IMG/VR virus record: IMGVR_UViG_3300025617_001009
Span: 1 to 37,469 of that record
Strand: one strand, 5' to 3'
From: a virus
Length of the DNA: 37,469 nucleotides
Shown piece after piece: positions 592 through 18,057 of the stretch. Both the position numbers and the translations under genes were made by a program. The stretch's first letter is position 1, and every line of letters starts with the position of its first letter. Under the pieces are notes generated by a model. It was given only the letters and a program-made list of their open reading frames with translations. It ran no database searches and had not been told where the DNA came from.

Positions 592-738
592 TTATTGACA
601 TTCTTTGTAGTCACAAGGATTAAGCATACGATCCCATTGTGGTCCTATTGACTCCCAGTAGGTGTTGCTGGCTGGAACCATTACCGCATAGAGCAAACAT
701 ACCAATCCTGCTATTGCTATAAGACTAATTTTCCACAT
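592..738 (-). CDS. Small membrane-anchored or secreted 48-aa protein
   Basis: Short frame from ATG at 738 to TAA at 592. Residues 1-23 form a hydrophobic segment (MWKISLIAIAGLVCLLYAVM), then a short polar tail with two cysteines (NPCDYKEC) near the C-terminus. The start overlaps the 3' end of the 147-aa gene by 14 nt, which suggests translational coupling. It is probably a small periplasmic or inner-membrane-anchored peptide. No family is recognised. Support is the overlap, the coherent signal/TM segment, and the position in a run of secreted genes. Confidence 0.6.
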   Translation of the reverse strand: MWKISLIAIAGLVCLLYAVMVPASNTYWESIGPQWDRMLNPCDYKECQ

Positions 739-1168
739 TGCGATTATCCCACGGTGCTGACTCAAAGCAATTTGCTGGCATCTTATCTTTGTATGTTACA
801 CCTGCTTTAAATCCGTCTCCACTGCGCTCTATGTACGCAGTCTTGAATGGCATCTCACGCTCCTTACCAAAGCACTTGTTATTGCTTTGTCCTGGATATC
901 TATAGCGTGGGTTGTGTTTTAGAAAATCTCTTAGCTCAGCAAGCTCTTGTTTATTTTGCTCTGCTTTCCAGTTGTGAAAACATGCTGATGCTTTATTGAA
1001 ATTAAAGTTATCAAACTTATCCGGTGTATAGCCCTGTAGTGCTAGACATCCTTTTATTACTGTGTTTGTTGTTAATTGTTCTGCTTCTGCTTTTTGTGAA
1101 TCAAGCAAAAGTATAACACTTCCAAATGCTATGATAACCATAATACTTGCTATTAATTTTTCCTTCAT
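725..1168 (-). CDS. Secreted protein of unknown function, 147 aa
   Basis: It begins with a signal peptide or anchor (MKEKLIASIMVIIAFGSVIL, then LLDSQKAEA), followed by a polar mature domain with four cysteines (GCLALQ, ACFHNW, KCFGKE, NCFESA) that could form two disulfides in the periplasm or outside the cell. The ATG at 1168 has an AGGAGCGAA ribosome binding site a few bases upstream. It sits 10 nt after the curlin-repeat gene and overlaps the next small gene, so it belongs to the same transcript. Function is unknown; a role tied to the curli-like genes is inferred from context only. Confidence 0.75.
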   Translation of the reverse strand: MKEKLIASIMVIIAFGSVILLLDSQKAEAEQLTTNTVIKGCLALQGYTPDKFDNFNFNKASACFHNWKAEQNKQELAELRDFLKHNPRYRYPGQSNNKCFGKEREMPFKTAYIERSGDGFKAGVTYKDKMPANCFESAPWDNRNVEN

Positions 1169-1178
1169 TGTTTCGCTC

Positions 1179-2375
1179 CTAGTCTTGTTGTATAACTGTT
1201 AGTGAACAGCCTGCGGCTACATAACACGTGCCGCTTGTGGTGCTACCATCACTCATCGAATGTGGTAGACTGTATTCTTTTGAAGTTGTTCCGTTCTGTG
1301 TTAAATCAAAGTTCCAAGCACCTCCTCCATTTGTAAGTTCTATAGTTCCCGCATGACTTCCTCCGCCTTCTTGTAGGATAGTAGCATTGTGACTGTCGCC
1401 TATTAGATCTAACTGTAAGTAGTGTTGTCCTGTACCTCTTTGTATTACATTTGCTGTATTGTAATCGCCTTCTATATCTATAATTGCTGTCTTGCTTGTA
1501 TTTTCTTGTAATACATCTAAATTATTATTGGCGCCTATTATGTTTGCTTCTAGGTAGTGCGTGCCGCCAATGGTACTTGCTTGTTCAATATCTACTATGT
1601 TTGAGTTACCTACAATACCAAGTTCTAAATAGTGCGAGTCGCCTGCCTGTACAATATCAACAACATTGCTATTACCGTCGATGCTCACGTGTGCTTCCAT
1701 ACCGTGACTTGCTGTATCACTAAGTTTGCTTGTACGCTTTGTGCTTTGTGCACCTGTTATGCCTGAACTATACACAGGAGTTGGTGAACTACTTGTACTC
1801 GGACCGACATCATTTAGTGTAATAGTTCCAGCACCAATAACAGCACCATAGTTACCTGCCCAGGAGCCACCATCACGTCCAGATATTGTAATATACACTT
1901 GTATAGTACTACGATGTTTTGTAACCGTATAGTCATATGTGTCCATTGTGGTGTTGGTTATATTTTCAGTAATACTGTTTGTTTGAAGTATTTGTCCAGA
2001 ACCATTCTTTTGCTGTATGGTAATGACAACATATTCAGTCTTATTTCCTTGCTCACCGTTTCTTGGACCTGTCATCATATCTAAACTTAGATACATAGTG
2101 CTACCACTAAAGCCTAGCGGTATATTAAATGTGTTATAGATGTAATAACTTGACGAATAGGCAAACACAACGTCACCACTACCTATACCATCGTTTGAGA
2201 AATAGGTGCCATTACTTACACAGGCCCTGGCTCCACTGTATCCGTAACAGGTTTGAAATCCTCCATAAGCACCCCAGGATCCAACATCACTGTTGATTAT
2301 TTCTGTAGCACATACGCTATTTGCGTATATCAAAAACAATAAACTACTGAGTCTGCGTAATATTGATTTGAACAC
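1179..2375 (-). CDS. Curlin-repeat extracellular protein (CsgA/B-like)
   Basis: Signal peptide at the N-terminus (FKSILRRLSSLLFLIYANS). Residues about 25-190 are a Gly/Ser/Thr/Tyr-rich beta domain. About residues 230-360 carry curlin-type repeats of the form N-x-x-x-I-x-Q-x-G (SNVVDIVQAGDS, SNIVDIEQAS, NNLDVLQENT, NTANVIQRGTG, HNATILQEGGG). Such repeats build the amyloid beta-solenoid of CsgA/CsgB. The gene follows the FecR-like gene with a 32-nt overlap. The likely start is GTG at 2375, about 5 nt after GGAGG; another GTG at 2381 overlaps that ribosome binding site. Probably exported via the nearby CsgG/CsgF pore. Whether it polymerises cannot be judged from sequence. Confidence 0.75.
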   Translation of the reverse strand: MFKSILRRLSSLLFLIYANSVCATEIINSDVGSWGAYGGFQTCYGYSGARACVSNGTYFSNDGIGSGDVVFAYSSSYYIYNTFNIPLGFSGSTMYLSLDMMTGPRNGEQGNKTEYVVITIQQKNGSGQILQTNSITENITNTTMDTYDYTVTKHRSTIQVYITISGRDGGSWAGNYGAVIGAGTITLNDVGPSTSSSPTPVYSSGITGAQSTKRTSKLSDTASHGMEAHVSIDGNSNVVDIVQAGDSHYLELGIVGNSNIVDIEQASTIGGTHYLEANIIGANNNLDVLQENTSKTAIIDIEGDYNTANVIQRGTGQHYLQLDLIGDSHNATILQEGGGSHAGTIELTNGGGAWNFDLTQNGTTSKEYSLPHSMSDGSTTSGTCYVAAGCSLTVIQQD

Positions 2376-3501
2376 TGGCACCTCCGTTTATTAATATCTC
2401 TGCTTGTACACCATCTTGTATAATTGTGAGATCAGTATTAGATTCTCTTTCTGTTACTACATCAGCGACATGAGGAATACGTTCAGAACGTATACCTATT
2501 TCTTCCTCGTTATAGTATGATTGATTTTTAATCCACGGATATTTGTGTATTGTAGGAAGTACACCATCATATTCTTCCATAGCATCGCCAAGATCTCCTG
2601 CTGTTAAATCTAATAAGTTATCAAGAAAATCTCCCCCGTATTCGTCTCTGTCAAGCCTGTTAGTGTTTAATTCTGCACTTTCTGCTAAAAGTTCTTTCAT
2701 TAGTTCATCAAACTCTAGAAAGTCTTCATCTAAAAAACTAACTTGCGATGGTTCGTTTTCACTATCAAACCCATCCGGAAATTGTTTTGGAGGAACAATA
2801 ATAAGAAGATTATTAATTAAAGGTCTGTCTGTAAGTACCTTAGGTTCCGTAGGAACACTAAATCTACTCGATACCACTGTTGTTTGATAGGCTTGATTCA
2901 TAATCACCATACCAGCATCTGTTGAAACTTCAATTTCTCCTGATGTACACTTCTCTTCGAGTTCCCCTTCGCTTAAACTAGGCTCTATAAGCCCAAACGG
3001 TAAGCCAGGACAGGTAGGTAATAGAGTAATCATCGATTGCCCTATTTCGTTTACAACCATTGTGAAGTCAGTACCGCGTACACTAACAGTTGCGGTAGGT
3101 GTTCTGAGTCTTACATTTTCTGGATTATTTTTTGCTACGCCACCACTAGCATAGCGAACAGTTCCCATAGTAACCCTACCGCTAAGTTTGCCGCTTTTAG
3201 CATCAGGATTATACGCAAATTCGTCTATAATAAACTGAGATTGTTCAGTAACTGCTACTTTTGTATTGTCATTAAAACCTAATACTAGTTTAGTATTTTT
3301 AGTTTCAATAGCATCGTTCATTTCTAATGGAGTATCTTTCTTCGCTGTAATTTCGTCTTTGTCTCTATACAACGTAGCATCTGGTCCTTGCTGATCTTGT
3401 ACAGTTCCAATAGCCGCAATTACAGGAGTAGTGAAAACTACTAAAAGAAAGATAAGTGGATATTTACTGTTGTGTAATATTGACAGCATTTGTACTACCA
3501 T
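2344..3501 (-). CDS. FecR-domain secreted protein
   Basis: About 385 aa with an N-terminal signal segment (KYPLIFLLVVFTTPVIA). A FecR-type domain follows at about residues 60-170, recognisable by LGFNDNTKVAVTEQSQFIID, LSGRVTMGTVRYASGG and the diagnostic VRLRTPTATVSVRGTDF. In bacteria FecR domains sense signals in the periplasm or form repeated extracellular domains. There is no cytoplasmic anti-sigma part here, so signalling by the classic route is unlikely. The C-terminal part is acidic. The start is uncertain (ATG at 3501 or 3489), both inside the 3' end of the upstream curlin gene, and the 3' end overlaps the second curlin gene. It sits between two curlin-repeat genes, so an extracellular matrix role is inferred. 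Confidence 0.8.
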   Translation of the reverse strand: MVVQMLSILHNSKYPLIFLLVVFTTPVIAAIGTVQDQQGPDATLYRDKDEITAKKDTPLEMNDAIETKNTKLVLGFNDNTKVAVTEQSQFIIDEFAYNPDAKSGKLSGRVTMGTVRYASGGVAKNNPENVRLRTPTATVSVRGTDFTMVVNEIGQSMITLLPTCPGLPFGLIEPSLSEGELEEKCTSGEIEVSTDAGMVIMNQAYQTTVVSSRFSVPTEPKVLTDRPLINNLLIIVPPKQFPDGFDSENEPSQVSFLDEDFLEFDELMKELLAESAELNTNRLDRDEYGGDFLDNLLDLTAGDLGDAMEEYDGVLPTIHKYPWIKNQSYYNEEEIGIRSERIPHVADVVTERESNTDLTIIQDGVQAEILINGGASVQINITQTQ

Positions 3502-4135
3502 CTATTGTTAAATTAACAATACCGGATTCAGTAGCACTAGACTGATCAATGTTTACAATGTTATTACTACTTGCTGTTCCGGCACCGCCAATATTAACTG
3601 TAACATCTGCTGTACTAGAAGAACCAGCAACTCCGCTTCTAGAAATTGCTACTTTATTGCTGTCTCCGTTTATATCGAGATCAACTTCAAAGTCATTAAC
3701 GCCAACAGATGTATTACAAACAGCACTAGTACCACTTGCAGCTGCAGTTGTAACTGTACCACATAATGTTGTTTCATTATAACTGCCGCTAATCTGAGCA
3801 TCATAAGTTGTTGAGTCAGCAGACCCTATATTAATATCACCAACGTTATAATCTCCATCTTGATCAATATTAATAACAGTTGATGCAGCTCCGGTTGTAG
3901 TTTCAATATCTAGTTCGTTGCTAGAACCGTTTTGAACAACGTCTACATCGGTTCCTGTGCCATACAATGATGCGGCATCGCTCGAACTACCAACTCTGTT
4001 ACCATCACCTGTTTGAGTAATATCAATAGTTGAACTAGATCCTACTTGTTCAATATAGACATCAGCTGCATTAACTGGTATAATACCAGCTAAAAATAGT
4101 AACATAGCCACTTTTATAGTTTTTATACGTGACAT
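3464..4135 (-). CDS. Curlin-repeat protein (CsgA/CsgB-like)
   Basis: A 223-aa secreted protein with signal peptide MSRIKTIKVAMLLFLAGIIP ending VNAA. The mature chain repeats short strands with the curlin signature: VYIEQVGSSSTIDITQTGDG, VDVVQNGSSNELDIE, VINIDQDGDYNVGDI, NNIVNIDQSS, NAVNITQQ. It resembles minor curlin CsgB in that it ends on a repeat. Ribosome binding site GGGAGCGAA lies just before the ATG, and a late promoter (AATAAATA, 4168-4175) lies 33 nt further upstream. It follows csgG by 76 nt on the same strand. Two cysteines (TLCGTV, AVCNTS) are unusual for curlins. Confidence 0.8.
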   Translation of the reverse strand: MSRIKTIKVAMLLFLAGIIPVNAADVYIEQVGSSSTIDITQTGDGNRVGSSSDAASLYGTGTDVDVVQNGSSNELDIETTTGAASTVINIDQDGDYNVGDINIGSADSTTYDAQISGSYNETTLCGTVTTAAASGTSAVCNTSVGVNDFEVDLDINGDSNKVAISRSGVAGSSSTADVTVNIGGAGTASSNNIVNIDQSSATESGIVNLTIDGSTNAVNITQQ

Positions 4136-4167
4136 TTTTTCGCTCCCGGGACTTTATGTTCCCATAA

Positions 4168-4175
4168 TATTTATT
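4168..4175 (-). promoter_or_regulatory. T4-type late promoter (AATAAATA)
   Basis: Minus-strand AATAAATA, one mismatch from the T4 late consensus TATAAATA, 33 nt upstream of the curlin gene start at 4135. It would allow the curlin-FecR-curlin block to be transcribed late, separately from csgF-csgG. Confidence 0.5.
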
Positions 4176-4211
4176 GAGTGTTGTTTAAATTTTTAACACT
4201 ATAGTTTTAGT

Positions 4212-5009
4212 TTACTCGTTGCTGACATCCTCTCCAGATGTAAAACTCCAAAGACCTTGTTTCTCTCCGTCTTTGATTATCTCTACCACTGCTTGTTGTA
4301 TTGCTACTCTAACAGCGTAGTTTACAGGTTCATTAACTGTATGACCAGCTTCTGCTTCAGCGGCTTGTGTCCCCATATCAAAGAAACGGAAAAACGTAAA
4401 CTTATCTCCCGCACTTAATATAGTTTTGGTCACAAGTACATTTAACAGTATTTCACCTGTTTGAACACTAACTACTCTCATACCGATTGTTACTACATCT
4501 TGTCTGTACTCTGAGCTAGGTCCAATTCCTAAATATCTTGCTCCTATTCCTCCAGTCTTAGTATTACTATCATAACCTACTATAGATCCTTCTATTAGTA
4601 TACCCGCATATAGTAATGGCTGTAGTGACGTTTCGTCACCAGCACCTTGACGTTGCTGTCTAATAATTTGTCTTTCTTTTGTTAGATTTTCTAACGCACC
4701 TCTTTCTACTATTTTAAACCAATTACCAGGTCCGACCTGCTTTAATGCTTCGATTACATAAGCATCCGCACCTTGTGTAACAGCGTAACTAATATTACTA
4801 AGTTTATCACTAGGCTTTCGTTGACCTGTTTTGTCTTGAAAACTATATACAGCAACATATATAGGGCCACCGGATGGTCCTGGCAAAGACTTAAACTCGT
4901 CTTGAGGTTTAACTCTGTTGGCACCTTCCCATTCTTTTTCAGTCATGTTCATGGTTGCGCAACCAGTTAAGAATAATCCTATTAGTAATAATGAAATAGT
5001 TTTTTTCAT
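4212..5009 (-). CDS. csgG: CsgG-like outer-membrane curli secretion channel lipoprotein
   Basis: About 265 aa from ATG at 5009 (MKKTISLLLIG). The lipobox LFLTGC marks an outer-membrane lipoprotein, as in CsgG. The body matches the CsgG family: IYVAVYSFQDKTGQRKPS near the N-terminus, the conserved GADAYVIEALKQVG and WFKIVERGALENLTKERQII, then YAGILIEGSIVGYDSNTKTG and GARYLGIG, where CsgG forms its beta-barrel strands. CsgG makes a nonameric outer-membrane pore that exports curlins. A TTG in frame at 5021 was rejected as start because the ATG leaves 1 nt after csgF. No csgE or csgC is visible nearby. Confidence 0.93.
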   Translation of the reverse strand: MKKTISLLLIGLFLTGCATMNMTEKEWEGANRVKPQDEFKSLPGPSGGPIYVAVYSFQDKTGQRKPSDKLSNISYAVTQGADAYVIEALKQVGPGNWFKIVERGALENLTKERQIIRQQRQGAGDETSLQPLLYAGILIEGSIVGYDSNTKTGGIGARYLGIGPSSEYRQDVVTIGMRVVSVQTGEILLNVLVTKTILSAGDKFTFFRFFDMGTQAAEAEAGHTVNEPVNYAVRVAIQQAVVEIIKDGEKQGLWSFTSGEDVSNE

Positions 5010-5010
5010 A

Positions 5011-5469
5011 TTAAAACGCAAAGTCCCCTACTGGTGTTTCAAACTCACTAGCTAAGTCACCGTTGCTATCGTATATTTCGACATAGATAACACCGCTTTC
5101 TCTTTTCCATTTTATAGTGTCACCGAATGGCGTTTCACTTTCCGCCCACTCCCCATCTATTATATCGCCGCCTTCGCCGAATAGACTGTCAGCAATATTT
5201 TTAGACAGTTGAGCATATATTCTCGATTCTAGATTGTTTTTGAACTTGTACATATTAGTACTTTTTGCTTCACGCTCCGCTTTGTCGATAGCGGCTTGAG
5301 CATCTTCTTCATTCTTGTCCTTGCGTTGCTGTTCAAGTTGGTGTATTGTAAGCACATGACTGCTATACCCTTGACCACTAAATGCTGGAGAATGAAATTG
5401 ATGTACTAGTTCGTTTGCGTGTGAATACGCAGGCACGAGTAATAGTGCTATTACTAAAAAGTTCTTCAA
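5011..5469 (-). CDS. csgF: CsgF-like curli assembly factor
   Basis: A 152-aa exported protein with signal peptide MKNFLVIALLLVPAYSHA. The mature N-terminus ELVHQFHSPAFSGQGYSS matches CsgF (consensus ELVYxPxNPxFGG...), the part that inserts into the CsgG channel. A coiled, charged middle (QLEQQRKDKNEEDAQAAIDK) and a beta-rich C-terminus follow. The start is TTG at 5469, supported by GGGAGCGAATC just before it. csgF is directly followed by csgG, so the two are co-translated. CsgF caps CsgG and tethers the curlin nucleator to the surface; in this phage it may also serve pore formation or surface display. Confidence 0.9.
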   Translation of the reverse strand: MKNFLVIALLLVPAYSHANELVHQFHSPAFSGQGYSSHVLTIHQLEQQRKDKNEEDAQAAIDKAEREAKSTNMYKFKNNLESRIYAQLSKNIADSLFGEGGDIIDGEWAESETPFGDTIKWKRESGVIYVEIYDSNGDLASEFETPVGDFAF

Positions 5470-6725: not shown

Positions 6726-7413
6726 TCAGTTTAGGAAATAACATGTCACGACAGAAAACTTCAACATCTTCTTCAGGCAGACCTAAACTTTTCATTACAT
6801 TAGGAGTATGTGGATTTTGTTGCTGATTGTGACAATAATAATTTTGTGAGGCAGAAACTAAATCAGCTTGTCCGTACCCATCAAACTGGGGTACTTCTTC
6901 GAACCATGCTTTTAAGTTATTAAGTGCTATGTTAATAATTTGTTCTGCTTCTTCTTCAGTGTTTACATTACCTGCGGCAAGCATCTTACCTGTGAATATG
7001 TTACGAGCCCATTCAGGTAATTCACGTTGCTTCTTGGGAATAAAATCTTCTACGCTTTCATAGTAACCTTGTATCATAGGATGATCAGGATCGCTACTAG
7101 GTGAAAAGTCATGAAATGCGCCGGTCATCTTATTCTTGCCAGCGATTACATCAAAGCCGTAAATAGGCGAATCGTTAGTTAAGTTTGGAAAACAACATAC
7201 ATGCATCATCCAAAGACCTTTTGTGTCTCTGGCGTCTACAACATCGATATGAGCCCTACGAACAGACTTATTAGCCCACACACGATTAATCCAACCAGAA
7301 TCAGGACGGTTGAATCTGTCGAGTCCTTCTTCTTGAATTTCAGTAGCGTACTCATCAAATGTGTGTATAATTTCATCTTTACAATTAATTAGTTTGTTCC
7401 AGATTCCACTCAT
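6721..7413 (-). CDS. pcyX: Ferredoxin-dependent bilin reductase, PcyX/PebS type
   Basis: 230 aa, the normal length of a phage bilin reductase. The family signature is clear: HIDVVDARDTKGLWMMHVCC, FPNLTNDSPIYGFDVIAGKN and KMTGAFHDFSP, plus a C-terminal block NYYCHNQQQNPHTPNVMKSL and FCRDMLFPKL. D88 in YGFDVIAG aligns with the catalytic aspartate of PebS/PcyA. These enzymes reduce biliverdin IX-alpha with electrons from ferredoxin; phage PebS and PcyX make phycoerythrobilin. The gene overlaps the heme oxygenase gene by 29 nt, so substrate and enzyme are made together. PcyX is favoured over PebS by the non-cyanophage setting; the exact product is inference. Confidence 0.85.
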   Translation of the reverse strand: MSGIWNKLINCKDEIIHTFDEYATEIQEEGLDRFNRPDSGWINRVWANKSVRRAHIDVVDARDTKGLWMMHVCCFPNLTNDSPIYGFDVIAGKNKMTGAFHDFSPSSDPDHPMIQGYYESVEDFIPKKQRELPEWARNIFTGKMLAAGNVNTEEEAEQIINIALNNLKAWFEEVPQFDGYGQADLVSASQNYYCHNQQQNPHTPNVMKSLGLPEEDVEVFCRDMLFPKLK

Positions 7414-7942
7414 TTAATTCCCTCATGATATTGATAGCATGTTCAAATGCTACATTCGCTTCATCTGACAAGTCGTCTGTTAATTTTTCTCTGATGCGAG
7501 TAATTAAAAGATCTTTGTTTTGAAAATCATAAAACTTACCGCTTCCTGGAACACGTTTAGCAATCATTTGACCTCCGTAGAGATCGCCCATATGCCTTAC
7601 ATAAAGGTGAGCTAAAATTAAATGCTTTCTTTCTTGATCTTCAACAAGCTCTAGGAGATATTTTATATAGTTTCTTGTTGAATCAAAAGCAGTCATTGAC
7701 ATTGCTCTATATCCTAGTTCTTGGAGATCAGCTTTGATTCCAGTTACACGAGATAGTCCTGGCAAGTCTTTAAGAAAGCCTTCCTTTGCCGCAAGATGCT
7801 CTAGTACAATGTACACCTCTAGCATTTGATAAAGGTATGTTGCGTACTGTTTTTCGTTAATGTTACCGCTCATTAATAGTTTAGCAAACTCAGAGCGTTC
7901 AGCATCACTGTGTGCTTGTTTAGTAAGTTCTTTTAGACTCAT
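7385..7942 (-). CDS. hemO: Heme oxygenase
   Basis: 185 aa, short but within the range of bacterial and phage heme oxygenases. H11 in KQAHSDAE is the expected proximal heme ligand. The distal helix is visible as RHMGDLYGGQMIAKRVPG (about residues 116-133), with the glycines that let heme bind. The enzyme opens heme to biliverdin, CO and iron. The overlap with the bilin reductase gene indicates a two-step heme-to-bilin pathway. Ribosome binding site AAGGAG precedes the ATG and a late promoter (AATAAATA, 7968-7975) lies upstream. No bilin lyase or phycobiliprotein gene is visible in the window. Confidence 0.93.
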   Translation of the reverse strand: MSLKELTKQAHSDAERSEFAKLLMSGNINEKQYATYLYQMLEVYIVLEHLAAKEGFLKDLPGLSRVTGIKADLQELGYRAMSMTAFDSTRNYIKYLLELVEDQERKHLILAHLYVRHMGDLYGGQMIAKRVPGSGKFYDFQNKDLLITRIREKLTDDLSDEANVAFEHAINIMRELNEWNLEQTN

Positions 7943-7967
7943 TTTATCTCCTTATTATGTACGCATA

Positions 7968-7975
7968 TATTTATT
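7968..7975 (-). promoter_or_regulatory. T4-type late promoter (AATAAATA) for hemO-pcyX
   Basis: Minus-strand AATAAATA located 26 nt upstream of the hemO ATG, in the short gap after clpS. It suggests late expression of the bilin genes. Motif-based call. Confidence 0.5.
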
Positions 7976-7999
7976 GGCGATTTAACGAGCCTAAAAATT

Positions 8000-8305
8000 T
8001 TATTCTTCTTCAAGTTTGACCTGTAATGGAAACCCGTTTTCTTTGGCCATTGCTGTGGCTTCGACACCTTTGTGTTCAGCAATTTCGTATGAATACACAC
8101 CAGCGATTCCTGCGCCTGTATTGTGTACTTCTAATGTAATTTCTTTGGCTTTTAGTTCATCATGTCTAAAAATATTTTTTAACAGATCAATAACAAAATC
8201 CATAGGGGTTTTGTCGTCATTCATTAATAAGACTTTCCACATACGTGGCTCGTCTAAGTTGACTGTTACTTTGCTATCAATAGCAATATCTGTTGACGTT
8301 GACAT
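8000..8305 (-). CDS. clpS: ClpS adaptor (N-degron recognition for ClpA)
   Basis: 101 aa, typical ClpS size. After a flexible N-terminal arm (about 20 residues) the folded domain shows the hallmarks: WKVLLMNDDKTPMDFVIDLL (the NDD-TPM-F motif that forms the N-degron pocket), EVHNTGAGIAGVYSYEIAEH (with the pocket histidine) and a C-terminal NGFPLQVKLEEE. ClpS delivers proteins with bulky N-terminal residues to ClpAP and slows ClpAP on ssrA-tagged proteins. The ribosome binding site is AAGGAG. It follows hsp20 after a 55-nt gap that holds a perfect hairpin. No ClpA or ClpP gene is in the window, so it must work with the host protease. Confidence 0.93.
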   Translation of the reverse strand: MSTSTDIAIDSKVTVNLDEPRMWKVLLMNDDKTPMDFVIDLLKNIFRHDELKAKEITLEVHNTGAGIAGVYSYEIAEHKGVEATAMAKENGFPLQVKLEEE

Positions 8306-8324
8306 GTTTTCTCCTTGTACAGAA

Positions 8325-8350
8325 TGTGTAGGGGATTTCTCCCCTACACA
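8325..8350 (-). promoter_or_regulatory. Perfect 10-bp hairpin in the hsp20-clpS gap
   Basis: TGTGTAGGGG pairs perfectly with CCCCTACACA around a 6-nt loop. It lies just after hsp20 and 20 nt before clpS. It lacks a U-run, so it is not a standard terminator. It could protect the hsp20 mRNA end, be a processing site, or shape clpS translation. A weak late-promoter-like GATAAGTA (8353-8360) lies immediately upstream. Confidence 0.5.
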
Positions 8351-8360
8351 AATACTTATC

Positions 8361-8807
8361 TTACTTTACTTCGACTACATCGATAATCTTAGGCTTTAGT
8401 TCCTCAGGAACTTCACGCTCAAGTTTAACTGTAAGAATGCCGTCTTTAATTTCAGCACCCTTAACTTTGATGTGCTCTGCTAGATTAAATGATCTAGTGA
8501 ACGCTCTCGAAGCAAGGCCTCTATGAAGATATGTAGGTCCATTAGTATCATCAACAACATCATCTTTAGTTGCTTCAATTACCAATGTACCATCTTCAGT
8601 AGTAACTTTAATTTCATCTTTCTTGAAACCAGCTACTGCTACTTCAATTGTATAGTGATTATCACCATCACGAATTACATTGTATGGTGGATAGTTGTTA
8701 CTCATCTGATTAATAAAACGTCCTTCCATTTCGTCAAACATTCTATCAAATCCGATTAGTGCTCTATTAAGAGCAGTTGTATCAAAACGTGCTAGATTAT
8801 TAGTCAT
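8361..8807 (-). CDS. hsp20: Small heat shock protein Hsp20 (IbpA-like)
   Basis: 148 aa with an N-terminal arm (FDTTALNRALIGFDRMFDEM), an alpha-crystallin domain from about residue 40 to 130 (YPPYNVIRDGDNHYTIEVAV, AGFKKDEIKVTTEDGTLVIE, RAFTRSFNLAEHIKVKGAEI, KDGILTVKLEREVPEE) and a C-terminal tail with a degenerate I-x-I-like motif (PKIIDVVEV). It binds unfolding proteins without ATP and hands them to DnaK. It lies just after dnaK, and its 30-nt leader is nearly the same as that of dnaK. Phage Hsp20 is known in T4-like cyanophages. Confidence 0.93.
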   Translation of the reverse strand: MTNNLARFDTTALNRALIGFDRMFDEMEGRFINQMSNNYPPYNVIRDGDNHYTIEVAVAGFKKDEIKVTTEDGTLVIEATKDDVVDDTNGPTYLHRGLASRAFTRSFNLAEHIKVKGAEIKDGILTVKLEREVPEELKPKIIDVVEVK

Positions 8808-8857
8808 TTTATTTCTCCTTTATTAAGCAAGTTTATCGGAACCCTATTAGGCGTTCC
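8805..8857 (-). promoter_or_regulatory. hsp20 leader: hairpin plus element shared with dnaK
   Basis: On the minus strand, an imperfect hairpin (GGAACGCC, loop TAATA, GGGTTCC; 8838-8857) is followed by ATAAACTTGCTTAATAAAGG and then AGAAATAAA and the ATG. The same block, with only a few changes, precedes dnaK. The hairpin has no U-run right after it, so it is more likely a leader structure than a terminator. Confidence 0.55.
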
Positions 8858-10741
8858 TTATGCTTTATCCGTTTCTTCGAACTCAGCATCTATAATATCA
8901 TCCTCTTTGCTTTCACTTGATTCAGTAGCAGATTCTGCTTCCTGTTTCTTTGCTCTAGCATCGTGGATGGGTTTGGTAGCGGCAAATACATTACTAACTT
9001 TTTCGCTAATAACATCTTTATCGTCACCATCAAGCGCAGTCTTTAATTCACTAATAGCATCTTCAATTGTCTTAATTTCATCCTCTGATAAATCATCCTT
9101 GACTTCCTTAAGATCTTTTTCAATGCCATGAATTGCAGCTTCTGCTTGATTCTTAGTTTCAATAAGTTCACGTGCTTTCTTATCTTCTTCGGCATGAGCT
9201 TCAGCATCTTTAATCATTGCTTCGATCTCTGCGTCACTTAGTCCGCCGTCTGACTTAATTGAAATCTTTTGTTCTTTACCAGTTGCTTTATCTTTTGCTG
9301 ATACATTAACAATACCGTTAGCATCAATATCAAAAGTAACTTCAATCTGTGGAACTCCTCTTGGTGCTGGAGTAATACCTTCTAGATTGAATTCACCTAG
9401 CAACTTGTTACGTGTCACAAGTTCGCCTTCGCCTTGGTATACTTTAATAGTTACTGCTGGTTGATTGTCGTCTGCTGTTGAAAAGATTTGCTGTCCTTTA
9501 GTAGGAATAGTTGTATTCTTTTCAATCAACTTGGCCATTACACCGCCCATTGTTTCAATACCTAATGATAGCGGAGTAACATCAAGTAGCAATACGTCTG
9601 TTACATCTCCACTTAGTACACCTGCTTGAATTGCGGCACCTAATGCTACAACTTCATCTGGGTTAACGCCTTTGTTTGGTTCTTTTCCAAAGAAGTTTTT
9701 AACAGTTTCTTGTACCTTAGGCATACGTGTCATACCACCTACAAGAACAACATCAGTAATTTCCTCTTTACTAATACCAGCATCTTTAAGTGCTACTTCA
9801 CAAGGCTTAATTGAACGTGTAATTAAATCATCTACTAGTGATTCAAACTTTGCTCTTGTAATTTTAATGTTAAGATGTTTAGGTCCCGAAGCATCTGCTG
9901 TAATGAACGGTAAACTAATATCAGTTTGCGCTGTGTTTGACAACTCAATCTTTGTTTTCTCAGCCGCTTCACGTACACGCTGAAGAGCCATTTTGTCTTG
10001 TGCGATGTCAATACCGTCTGACTTCTTAAACTCATCAACAATATACTGAGTAAGAACAGCGTCAAAGTCTTCACCACCTAGTGCTGTATCACCGTTGGTT
10101 GAAAGAACTTCAAATACACCGTCACCTAGCTCTAGTACTGAAACGTCAAAAGTACCTCCGCCTAAGTCATATACAATAATCTTGCCTGCTTCTTTTTTAT
10201 CAAGACCGTACGCAAGTGCGGCCGCAGTAGGCTCGTTTACAATACGCAATACTTCAAGCCCGGCAATTTTGCCTGCGTCTTTGGTTGCTTGACGCTGTGC
10301 GTCATCAAAATATGCCGGCACTGTAATAACTGCTTGTGTTACAGTTTCACCTGTGTACTTTTCAGCAGTCTCTTTCATCTTGGTTAAGATCTGTGCTGAA
10401 ATCTGTTGCGGCGAAAGCTCTTTACCGTTCGCTTCTACCCACGCATCTCCGCTTTTTGCTTCGACTACTTTGTATGGTAGTGTCTTAGCGTCACGTTGAA
10501 TTTCTTTTGATTTAAATTTGCGTCCGATCAAACGCTTGGCCGCATAGATAGTGTTAGTGGCATTTGTAATTGCTTGACGCTTTGCTGAAACACCTACAAG
10601 TGTATCTTCATCAGTGTACGCAACAATACTAGGAGTAGTGCGATTACCTTCTACGTTTTCAATTACTTGGGGATCGTTGCCGTTTAGAATAGCGACACAT
10701 GAATTTGTTGTACCGAGATCGATACCGATTACTTTACTCAT
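8858..10741 (-). CDS. dnaK: Hsp70 chaperone DnaK, full length
   Basis: 627 aa, close to bacterial DnaK length. The ATPase domain carries [13 protein letters not shown] (residues 6-18), [17 protein letters not shown], and the phosphate-2 loop DLGGGTFD (192-199). The interdomain linker [12 protein letters not shown] is intact. The substrate domain and C-terminal lid ([20 protein letters not shown]) are present, and the tail ends [14 protein letters not shown], close to the proteobacterial tail. DnaK refolds proteins with DnaJ and GrpE, which are absent here and would come from the host. Phage genomes rarely carry a complete dnaK. Ribosome binding site GGAG; late promoter TATAAATA at 10816-10823. 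Confidence 0.97.
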
Positions 10742-10785
10742 TTTTTTCTCCTTTAATAAGCGAGTTTATTTTTGGGCAAACGCCC
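10739..10785 (-). promoter_or_regulatory. dnaK leader: hairpin plus element shared with hsp20
   Basis: A small hairpin (GGGC, loop GTTT, GCCC; 10774-10785) is followed by AAAA and then ATAAACTCGCTTATTAAAGG, AGAAAAAA and the ATG. Apart from a few substitutions and one length difference, this is the hsp20 leader. It may be a shared translational or RNA-stability control site. Confidence 0.55.
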
Positions 10786-10815
10786 GTGTGTAGAACCCGA
10801 AGCATCCTACAACAT

Positions 10816-10823
10816 TATTTATA
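10816..10823 (-). promoter_or_regulatory. T4-type late promoter (TATAAATA) for dnaK
   Basis: Perfect TATAAATA on the minus strand, 75 nt upstream of dnaK, in the otherwise gene-free gap 10742-10868. In T4 this box is read by the gp55 sigma factor with gp33 and the sliding clamp. Confidence 0.65.
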
Positions 10824-10868
10824 TTGTATATATATATGTACGATTTAAAAAAAATCAAGTATTTTCGG

Positions 10869-12032
10869 TTAATTTTTTTCAAAAATGGCATTATACTGCT
10901 TGTGAGCAAGTATAAATGTAGTACATTTTGATAGTTGTTTTAGTGTTACTGCGCCTGCGTAAGTACAAGTAGAACGCAAACCCCCCAAGATATCTTGAAT
11001 AGTATTACCCACTGCGCCTCTGTAAGGCACAAGAACTTCTCTTCCTTCACTGCTTCTATACTCCTTAAGTCCGCCAAAGTGTTTGTCGTTTGCGGCTTCT
11101 GAACTCATACCGTAAAACTGTACAAACTGTTTTGTTTCTACTTTTGGAAACTCGCGATTCATGTCAATGCCACTCAACCGTTGAATAGGCTCTAGCTCGT
11201 TGGTCAAGTAGTATTTTGTAATAACATCGCCGCCGCCTTCATCGTGTCCAGCAAGCATACCACCTAGCATCACAAAGTCTGCTCCTGCGGCAAACGCTTT
11301 AGCAACATCGCCAGGACAAGTGCAGCCGCCATCAGCAATAATGTGACCGCCAAGACCGTGGGCCGCATCGGCACACTCAATGACAGCTGATAGCTGAGGA
11401 TAACCAACCCCAGTTTGAATCCGTGTAGTACATACACTCCCAGGGCCAATGCCCACTTTAACAATATCTGCTCCAGCAAGAATAAGTTCCTCTGTCATTT
11501 CGCCTGTTACTACATTTCCGGCGATGATTACAATATTTGGATATGTTTTACGCATCTCATACACAAAGTCACGGAAGCGATTTGAATATCCGTTGGCTAC
11601 GTCGATACAAACGTATTTTAATCTATCTTCAACACGTTCGTATACATTTTCAAACTTATACCAGTCACTACCATTGATACCAATACTCATAGCAACATAA
11701 TTTGTTCTTTCCATGTAGTCGCCGTTAAAGTATTCAACAAGTTCATCTACGGTATAGGTTTTAACAAGACAGGTAAACAAACCAGCCTCAGCGAGTTTGT
11801 CGCCCATTTCCATAGTACCAACACCATCCATGTTGGCAGCCATAATAGGAATACCGTTATAATGGCCGCGAGTATCTTCTTTAATTGATTCTATACTAAG
11901 AGGAGGCGGAGTGTAGTTGCGAAAAGTATATTTTCTTTCTAGACTTACTTCCTTGCGACTACCTAGTGTACTACGCTTTGGTCTGATCAACACGTCAGAG
12001 TAGTCAAGTTTCTGTTCTTGTTCGATGCGCAT
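10869..12032 (-). CDS. guaC: GMP reductase
   Basis: 387 aa TIM barrel of the IMPDH/GMP reductase family. It lacks CBS domains and matches GuaC throughout: [40 protein letters not shown] (catalytic C201), [54 protein letters not shown] and [18 protein letters not shown]. It converts GMP to IMP using NADPH. In a phage this would recycle host guanine nucleotides to IMP and then adenine nucleotides, which suits an AT-rich genome and feeds the ribonucleotide reductase in this window. It follows the DEDDh exonuclease by 7 nt and is probably co-transcribed from the promoter at 12625-12652. Confidence 0.95.
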
Positions 12033-17722: not shown

Positions 17723-17748
17723 AAAAGAAAGCACCCGAAGGTGCTTTC
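17723..17748 (-). terminator. Rho-independent terminator of the tmRNA gene
   Basis: Minus strand: GAAAGCACC, UUCG tetraloop closed by C-G, GGTGCTTTC, then TTTT. A textbook terminator that ends the tmRNA transcript. Confidence 0.9.
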
Positions 17749-18021
17749 CTGCTATTTTTGGTAACAAGGTATAACTACCCCGTAGCGATCAAGCCGCTAG
17801 TGCAAAGTTTCCTTCTGCAATTATTAAAGTCGGTCTATTCGCGACCATCCGGTTAACTCCACTTTCACTTTCACACCTGTCGATCCTATTTCGACCCCAT
17901 CAAAAGCATACTACCCGCTTTATCAGATACGTTCCAGACTTAACTGGAGTAGTATGCTTTTGGTGGAGTCGTCGGGTACCGCCCCCGAGTCCAGTATGTG
18001 TCCACGTTGCTTCAACGCTAA
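17727..18021 (-). ncRNA. ssrA: Circularly permuted two-piece tmRNA
   Basis: The gene order is acceptor piece, spacer, coding piece, as in alphaproteobacterial tmRNA. The acceptor piece ends CGACTCC-A-CCA (17971-17961) after a T-arm (TCGGG, loop GGCGGTA, CCCGA; 17988-17972). The coding piece starts GGGGTCG at 17898, which pairs with CGACTCC to give a 7-bp acceptor stem with a G3-U70 wobble, the identity mark for alanyl-tRNA synthetase. AGGATCGACAGG follows, as in other tmRNAs. A 13-bp stem (17902-17914 with 17949-17961) joins the pieces and must be processed out. A small hairpin GGTC...GACC precedes the tag frame. The tag is AEGNFALAA then TGA (17818-17789), ending in the LAA degron read by ClpX. 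Mature ends are estimates. Confidence 0.93.
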
Positions 18022-18027
18022 CAATAC

Positions 18028-18057
18028 TATTTAAGCATCTATTTTAAATTTTGTCAA
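18028..18057 (-). promoter_or_regulatory. Sigma70-like promoter of the tmRNA gene
   Basis: Minus-strand TTGACA (18052-18057), 18-nt spacer, TAAATA (18028-18033). The -35 box contains the TGA stop codon of the upstream 57-aa gene. The transcript would start near 18021. Confidence 0.7.

Follow-up and report, generated by a model that had tools for sequence, protein, structure and literature searches.

The question raised by this locus is whether a T4-like phage carries a working tmRNA of the circularly permuted, two-piece kind and, if so, from where its parts came and how it might serve the phage.

A complete permuted tmRNA gene

The stretch of DNA that was analysed, called the window here, is a virus record of 37,469 bases in which the sole RNA gene found was a minus-strand permuted tmRNA with the tag AEGNFALAA, called by ARAGORN at 18054-17698. 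The gene is complete and circularly permuted and runs from 18022 to 17727 (minus strand). It scored 94.1 bits against the Rfam model RF04321 (tmRNA_permuted; gathering threshold 47), with the acceptor half preceding the coding half, and 83.8 bits against RF01849 (alpha_tmRNA; gathering threshold 50), and its fold was better than that of 200 out of 200 shuffled versions (z = -5.7). Thus, the original prediction of a circularly permuted tmRNA is confirmed, with the correction that the gene is on the minus strand. The 7-bp acceptor stem with G3-U70, the CCA, the T-arm, and the tag frame ending in LAA and a stop, all of which had been predicted, were found in the window along with a P2 helix, and the tag frame is open and ends in the Clp degron.

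The acceptor piece (17961-18022, minus strand) consists of the P2 3' strand, the T-arm, the acceptor 3' strand, and an encoded CCA, as defined by RF01849 and by covariation in 96 viral tmRNAs, and it is alpha-type, given its RF01849 score. It is followed by an intervening segment of 62 nt (17899-17960, minus strand) that is absent from both Rfam consensus pieces and is expected to be removed; in the predicted fold it makes up a long hairpin by which the two pieces are brought close to each other, and it contains no ORF. The long stem that had been taken to join the acceptor and coding pieces is located in this segment and, since the segment is to be cut out, it does not join the mature pieces. 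The coding piece (17749-17898, minus strand, the 3' end at 17749 being approximate) begins with G1 at 17898 and holds the D-loop, the P2 5' strand, a PK1-type hairpin, the tag, and the post-tag domain. The tag frame (17789-17818, minus strand; ARAGORN) reads GCA GAA GGA AAC TTT GCA CTA GCG GCT TGA, which is AEGNFALAA followed by a stop. The post-tag domain, CGGGGUAGUUAUACCUUGUUACCAAAAAUAGCAGGAAAG (17744-17788, minus strand), is of the beta type by RF01850 and by comparison of consensus scores with shuffles, and it is likely to form a pseudoknot. At the 3' end is the hairpin GAAAGCACC-UUCG-GGUGCUUUC followed by UUUU (17727-17748, minus strand), the stem of which was also listed on the plus strand in a sequence scan. 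The UUCG terminator of the original prediction is likely to be one, and the hairpin is also the counterpart of the one at the 3' end of the beta_tmRNA model. It had also been thought that most pseudoknots were lost. PK1 stem 1 appears weak in the window; the PK1-type hairpin and the likely post-tag pseudoknot are nevertheless kept and, since few pseudoknots are the rule in two-piece tmRNAs (PMC3968760), the RNA has not been stripped down to an unusual degree and its reading as a strongly reduced RNA is unsupported.

Upstream of the gene there is a putative promoter (18029-18057, minus strand) with a -35 of TTGACA (18057-18052), a 17-nt spacer, and a -10 of TTAAAT (18034-18029). A strict promoter scan of the window did not pick up TTGACA-17-TTAAAT. 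However, TTGAC was found at an equal distance from the RNA start in 13 of the 18 distinct regions compared upstream of related tmRNAs, and this conserved position supports a dedicated promoter, as had been predicted, despite the negative scan. In nine other contigs (L086, L133, L146, L159, L179, L184, L198, L210, and L227) the -10 upstream of the tmRNA is TATAAATA, which is like a T4 late promoter and is paired with a -35 of TTGAC, so that expression could be early or late.

Small ORFs were observed in the intervening segments of other viral permuted tmRNAs. In 31 of 144 the segment held an ORF of 25 codons or more, and many of these ORFs have a Shine-Dalgarno-like motif. One family of 38-44 aa is nested in L108, L126, L131, L135, L145, L148, L194, and L205, and another of 62 aa is nested in L007, L015, L047, and L252 and is a separate gene directly upstream of the tmRNA in Melnitz; L100 with L186 and L217 with L218 make up other groups. 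The pN/pS values were 0.16-0.40 in four groups, two of which had only two sequences each. In some phages a small protein gene thus appears to be kept within the segment of a split RNA gene that is cut out.

The phage and its known relatives

The window carries a curli module (725-5469, minus strand) of CsgF, CsgG, curlin-repeat, and FecR-like genes, and phages Melnitz and HTVC008M share this gene order; CsgG and CsgF were identified by Pfam and CsgG is 44-50% identical to that of these two phages. This block, together with T4-like nrd genes (NrdB), makes the window, a 37-kb fragment, Melnitz/pelagimyophage-like (Kyanoviridae-like), which agrees with its earlier description as T4-like. A host-like run of genes at 7385-12032 (minus strand) codes for heme oxygenase, ClpS, Hsp20, a full-length DnaK, and an enzyme like IMPDH or GMP reductase; DnaK was seen in only 2 of 20 related records.

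It had been left open whether this type of phage had been described with a tmRNA. It has been: two-piece tmRNAs were reported in the OM43 phage Melnitz and the Pelagibacter phage Mosig, and phage tmRNA structures were counted to include 53 of the two-piece kind, of which 50 were marine or aquatic (PMC9004378). That report and the Mosig and Melnitz records rule out a claim to the first such phage with a tmRNA, and a permuted tmRNA in a phage of this kind is already known. HTVC008M, Melnitz, Mosig, DSS3P8, vB_RpoS-V10, and RcXuper all scored over the RF04321 cut-off. In HTVC008M (KC465899, 145161-145370) and in the three Roseobacter/Rhodobacter phages DSS3P8 (KT870145, 9093-9391), vB_RpoS-V10 (MH015255, 9203-9506), and RcXuper (OP186293, 3259-3561) the permuted tmRNA is unannotated, the records having no tmRNA feature at the locus. 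A literature search for 'phage-encoded tmRNA' returned nothing relevant, and querying phages with the L069 tmRNA at the nucleotide level gave no match. Two contigs have unusual contents. L055 has two different full-length alpha-type permuted tmRNA genes on the plus strand (8151-8446 and 9078-9439), with the tags ANDNFASEDYALAA and ANENFALAA and two tRNA genes between them. In L228 (3455-3643, plus strand) there is a tmRNA-like gene with a beta 3' end that scored 48.7 bits, barely above the RF04321 cut-off, and is almost empty from the acceptor strand to the tag; it is possibly a degenerate or an extremely reduced tmRNA.

An alpha-type body with a beta-type 3' end

The RNA had been assigned to the alphaproteobacterial two-piece layout, and this holds for its front half but not for its post-tag domain. 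Over the tRNA-like half (17869-17998) the alpha_tmRNA model was the best of its Rfam clan, and this domain is alpha-type. The match to RF01849 ends, however, at model position 177 of 355 and the alpha-type post-tag domain, ACCUGGCAACAGAA, is missing. When 17822-17724 was searched alone it matched positions 223-331 of beta_tmRNA (RF01850) with 34 bits and an E-value of 1e-9, a partial match that is below the RF01850 gathering threshold of 84 and takes in neither the full length of the model nor a beta tRNA-like domain. The core of the beta consensus, CCUUGUUACC, is present in the post-tag stretch of the window at the place where the alpha Rfam consensus has ACCUGGCAACAGAA. The post-tag segment scored 34 on the beta consensus, which was reached by 0 of 500 shuffles, and only at the shuffle level on the alpha consensus, whereas in three sister phages (L013, L016, and L159) the pattern was the reverse.

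Three scans, each with another part of the domain, found the same post-tag domain in 28 other viral contigs. Such pattern scans condition on the stretch that they match and, therefore, the near-identity of the domain is partly imposed, but positions outside each scan pattern are also conserved. In the domain variants of L106, L249, and L250, inspection by eye indicated that both sides of a putative GUUAU/AUAGC stem are altered. Among the contigs that could be parsed, an alpha T-arm was combined with a beta 3' end in 22 viral contigs, including the window, that have 17 distinct bodies. The nearest alpha-ended bodies were 83-97% identical to the chimeric ones while the post-tag parts were at most 62% identical, where shuffled sequences gave a mean of 34% and a maximum of 69%. 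For example, between the window and the alpha-ended L103 the identity is 96% in the acceptor, 94% in the coding part, and 62% in the post-tag part, and between L184 and L210 it is 97%, 95%, and 53%, respectively. The order nrdA, nrdB, small genes, and tmRNA is common to most contigs with the post-tag domain, and the NrdB proteins of the contigs with the nrd locus are 77-81% identical to that of the window, except in L225 and L249 where the identity is 51-53%.

The alpha and beta lineages are reported to have undergone permutation independently of each other (Sharkady and Williams 2004, cited in PMC9004378). From the sequence comparisons, the phage tmRNAs with an alpha body and a beta 3' end look like recombinant chimeras of these two lineages, and the mismatch between body and 3' end is read most simply as recombination at a single syntenic locus. 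The other explanation is that the combination is native to a bacterial host lineage and was captured whole, with no recombination in phages; phage tmRNAs catalogued so far have been treated as captured whole. From the phage, plasmid, and Rfam sequences compared, we consider a host origin of the combination unlikely, as there are sister genes in phages, identical by as much as 97% in the body, that have the alpha domain at the end, and the alpha Rfam consensus itself has a different post-tag sequence. Moreover, in L231 the beta model matched over its full length, so that the same 3' domain is found on a wholly beta-type tmRNA at the same phage locus. The post-tag block had no match in INPHARED phages or plasmids, which also speaks against whole capture, and on this ground the idea that the block is a cassette occurring elsewhere was rejected. 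Returning to recombination between phages, it is fairly probable that marine phages are mixing vessels for tmRNA, in which recombination within the gene joins halves from two bacterial lineages and the chimeras are kept clade-wide with varied tags.

The tag, ClpS, and the possible fate of tagged proteins

The tag had been described as short, but nine coded residues are not unusually few: the commonest tmRNA tag length is 10 aa (PMC11915505), and the 9-aa ANENFALAA occurs commonly in sister phages. The tags of these phages have lengths between 9 and about 24 residues; AA is the ending of nearly all of them and LAA that of most. AEGNFALAA itself is rare: a scan of viral contigs found it in one other contig, L086, and a genome scan found it among cellular sequences in six Planctomycetota contigs only. 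Four of these (L087, L088, L089, and L091) are clear tmRNAs that ARAGORN calls as standard, unpermuted one-piece genes, unlike the permuted gene of the window, and two (L090 and L092) are less clear. Because the clear cases are unpermuted the shared tag looks convergent, and as a clue to the host it is uninformative.

The adaptor SspB binds the AND(E)N stretch that is typical of host-type tags. AEGNFALAA is without this stretch and is unlike the ANDN-type tags that most sister phages have, but it has kept the LAA degron, as had been noted earlier. This raises the possibility that the phage tmRNA mainly re-routes the proteins it tags, such that their degradation is unlike that of proteins tagged by host tmRNA. 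A gene for the adaptor ClpS (8000-8305, minus strand; Pfam PF02617, E=4e-29) lies outside the RNA gene in the same contig, and ClpS was found in 10 of 32 records, namely the window and nine other virus records with a tmRNA, where it usually lies on the same strand 9-19 kb downstream. In E. coli, ClpS shifts ClpAP away from SsrA-tagged proteins (PMC12493166). By its co-occurrence with the tmRNA, phage ClpS is a possible partner in the handling of tagged proteins and could shift ClpAP off them; a literature search on ClpS together with phage tmRNA gave nothing relevant among the papers matched. Re-routing as the main role is nevertheless quite unlikely, since the isolates HTVC008M, Melnitz, and Mosig have the tmRNA but not ClpS, many sister phages retain ANDN or ANEN tags, and the co-occurrence, which was scored in tmRNA-bearing records only, may merely reflect shared gene order.

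Constraint on the RNA

The T-stem pairs were formed in every one of 96 viral permuted tmRNAs, with several compensatory pair types, and the P2 pairs were formed in 89-96, also with several pair types; acceptor pair 5 occurred as all six standard pair types and G3-U70 was invariant. This set was retrieved partly by a D-loop pattern and only sequences with the seven acceptor pairs formed were kept, and hence full acceptor pairing is by construction, but the changes of pair type in the acceptor and the T-stem and P2 results were not imposed by the selection. Relative to the window, L086 has compensatory changes at acceptor pairs 5 and 6. Judged by this comparison, the tRNA-like domain of the window tmRNA is under strong constraint. 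The PK1-type hairpin before the tag also covaries in 14 hand-chosen sequences: 84% of the cells were paired, and none of 500 shuffles and none of the slid versions attained the covariation score. It is thus very improbable that the gene is a decayed host remnant or integration scar, a functionless passenger copy of a bacterial tmRNA, and although integration often takes place at tmRNA genes (PMC11915505) and prophages are known to carry ssrA fragments (PMC9004378), this was rejected because of the compensatory changes in the acceptor stem, T-stem, P2, and PK1-type hairpin, the open tag frame, and the conserved promoter position of a complete gene that is at the same locus in many phages.

A proposed course of events

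Alanyl-tRNA synthetase reads the G3-U70 pair of tmRNA, and an LAA end is a Clp degron. Given the anatomy of the gene, the covariation, the conserved promoter position, and the alpha body with a beta 3' domain, we infer the following course of processing, charging, tagging, and benefit to the phage. The tmRNA gene would be a working one, transcribed from its own promoter, with a tRNA-like half from an alphaproteobacterial-type tmRNA and a post-tag half from a betaproteobacterial-type tmRNA that were joined by recombination between phages at the conserved nrdA-nrdB locus. Host tRNA enzymes would excise the 62-nt spacer, and the pieces would remain held together by pairing in the acceptor and P2 stems. 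The tmRNA would then be charged by host alanyl-tRNA synthetase through G3-U70, and with host SmpB and EF-Tu it would enter ribosomes stalled on broken mRNAs, which are expected to be plentiful during phage takeover. It would add (A)AEGNFALAA and free the ribosome, and the LAA end would direct the tagged product to host ClpXP/ClpAP. Release of two pieces by host tRNA-processing enzymes and delivery of the RNA to stalled ribosomes by SmpB are established features of tmRNA (PMC3968760). No SmpB gene was found in the 32 phage records searched; as the window is a fragment, its genome may have one elsewhere. Since stalling on broken host mRNAs is expected to be common during infection, a capacity for rescue that is independent of host ssrA transcription would help the phage. 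Ribosome rescue is the simpler role; that the phage deliberately tags host proteins is speculation. We give this explanation as a whole, from a working chimeric two-piece tmRNA made by phage recombination to ribosome rescue and Clp targeting, a probability of about 0.78.

Comparison with known two-piece tmRNAs

What is new here is the internal alpha/beta make-up of the tmRNA and not the presence of the gene in such phages; no chimeric phage tmRNA was found among the literature matches listed. If these are true natural chimeras, the tRNA-like and post-tag halves of two-piece tmRNA are interchangeable modules that phages swap. The 22 contigs are a ready set with which to ask where the RNA has to fit the SmpB and Clp system of the host. 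They are relevant, too, to the move between SAR11 (alpha) and OM43 (beta-type) hosts that has been proposed for this phage group (PMC9004378).

Among the related T4-like marine phages, the Pelagibacter phage Mosig (MT647606, 111467-111805) has an annotated permuted tmRNA like that of the window, and so does the Methylophilales phage Melnitz (MZ577097, 45984-46436), the curli block of which is like that of the window. The Melnitz tmRNA, however, has the tag ANDNYVPVDYALAA and an alpha-type 3' end where the window has AEGNFALAA and a beta-type 3' end, and it adjoins the late-transcription coactivator, whereas the tmRNA of the window lies behind nrdA-nrdB. A glutamine riboswitch has been reported at the Melnitz locus (PMC9004378); in the window no riboswitch was found at the Rfam gathering level. 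The alphaproteobacterial two-piece tmRNA (RF01849) has the tRNA-like half, D-loop, T-arm, and permuted order of the window RNA but differs from it in the post-tag domain, which in the window is not alpha-type. The betaproteobacterial two-piece tmRNA (RF01850) is, conversely, like the window RNA from the tag to the 3' hairpin (positions 223-331) and differs from it in the tRNA-like half, which in the window is alpha-type.
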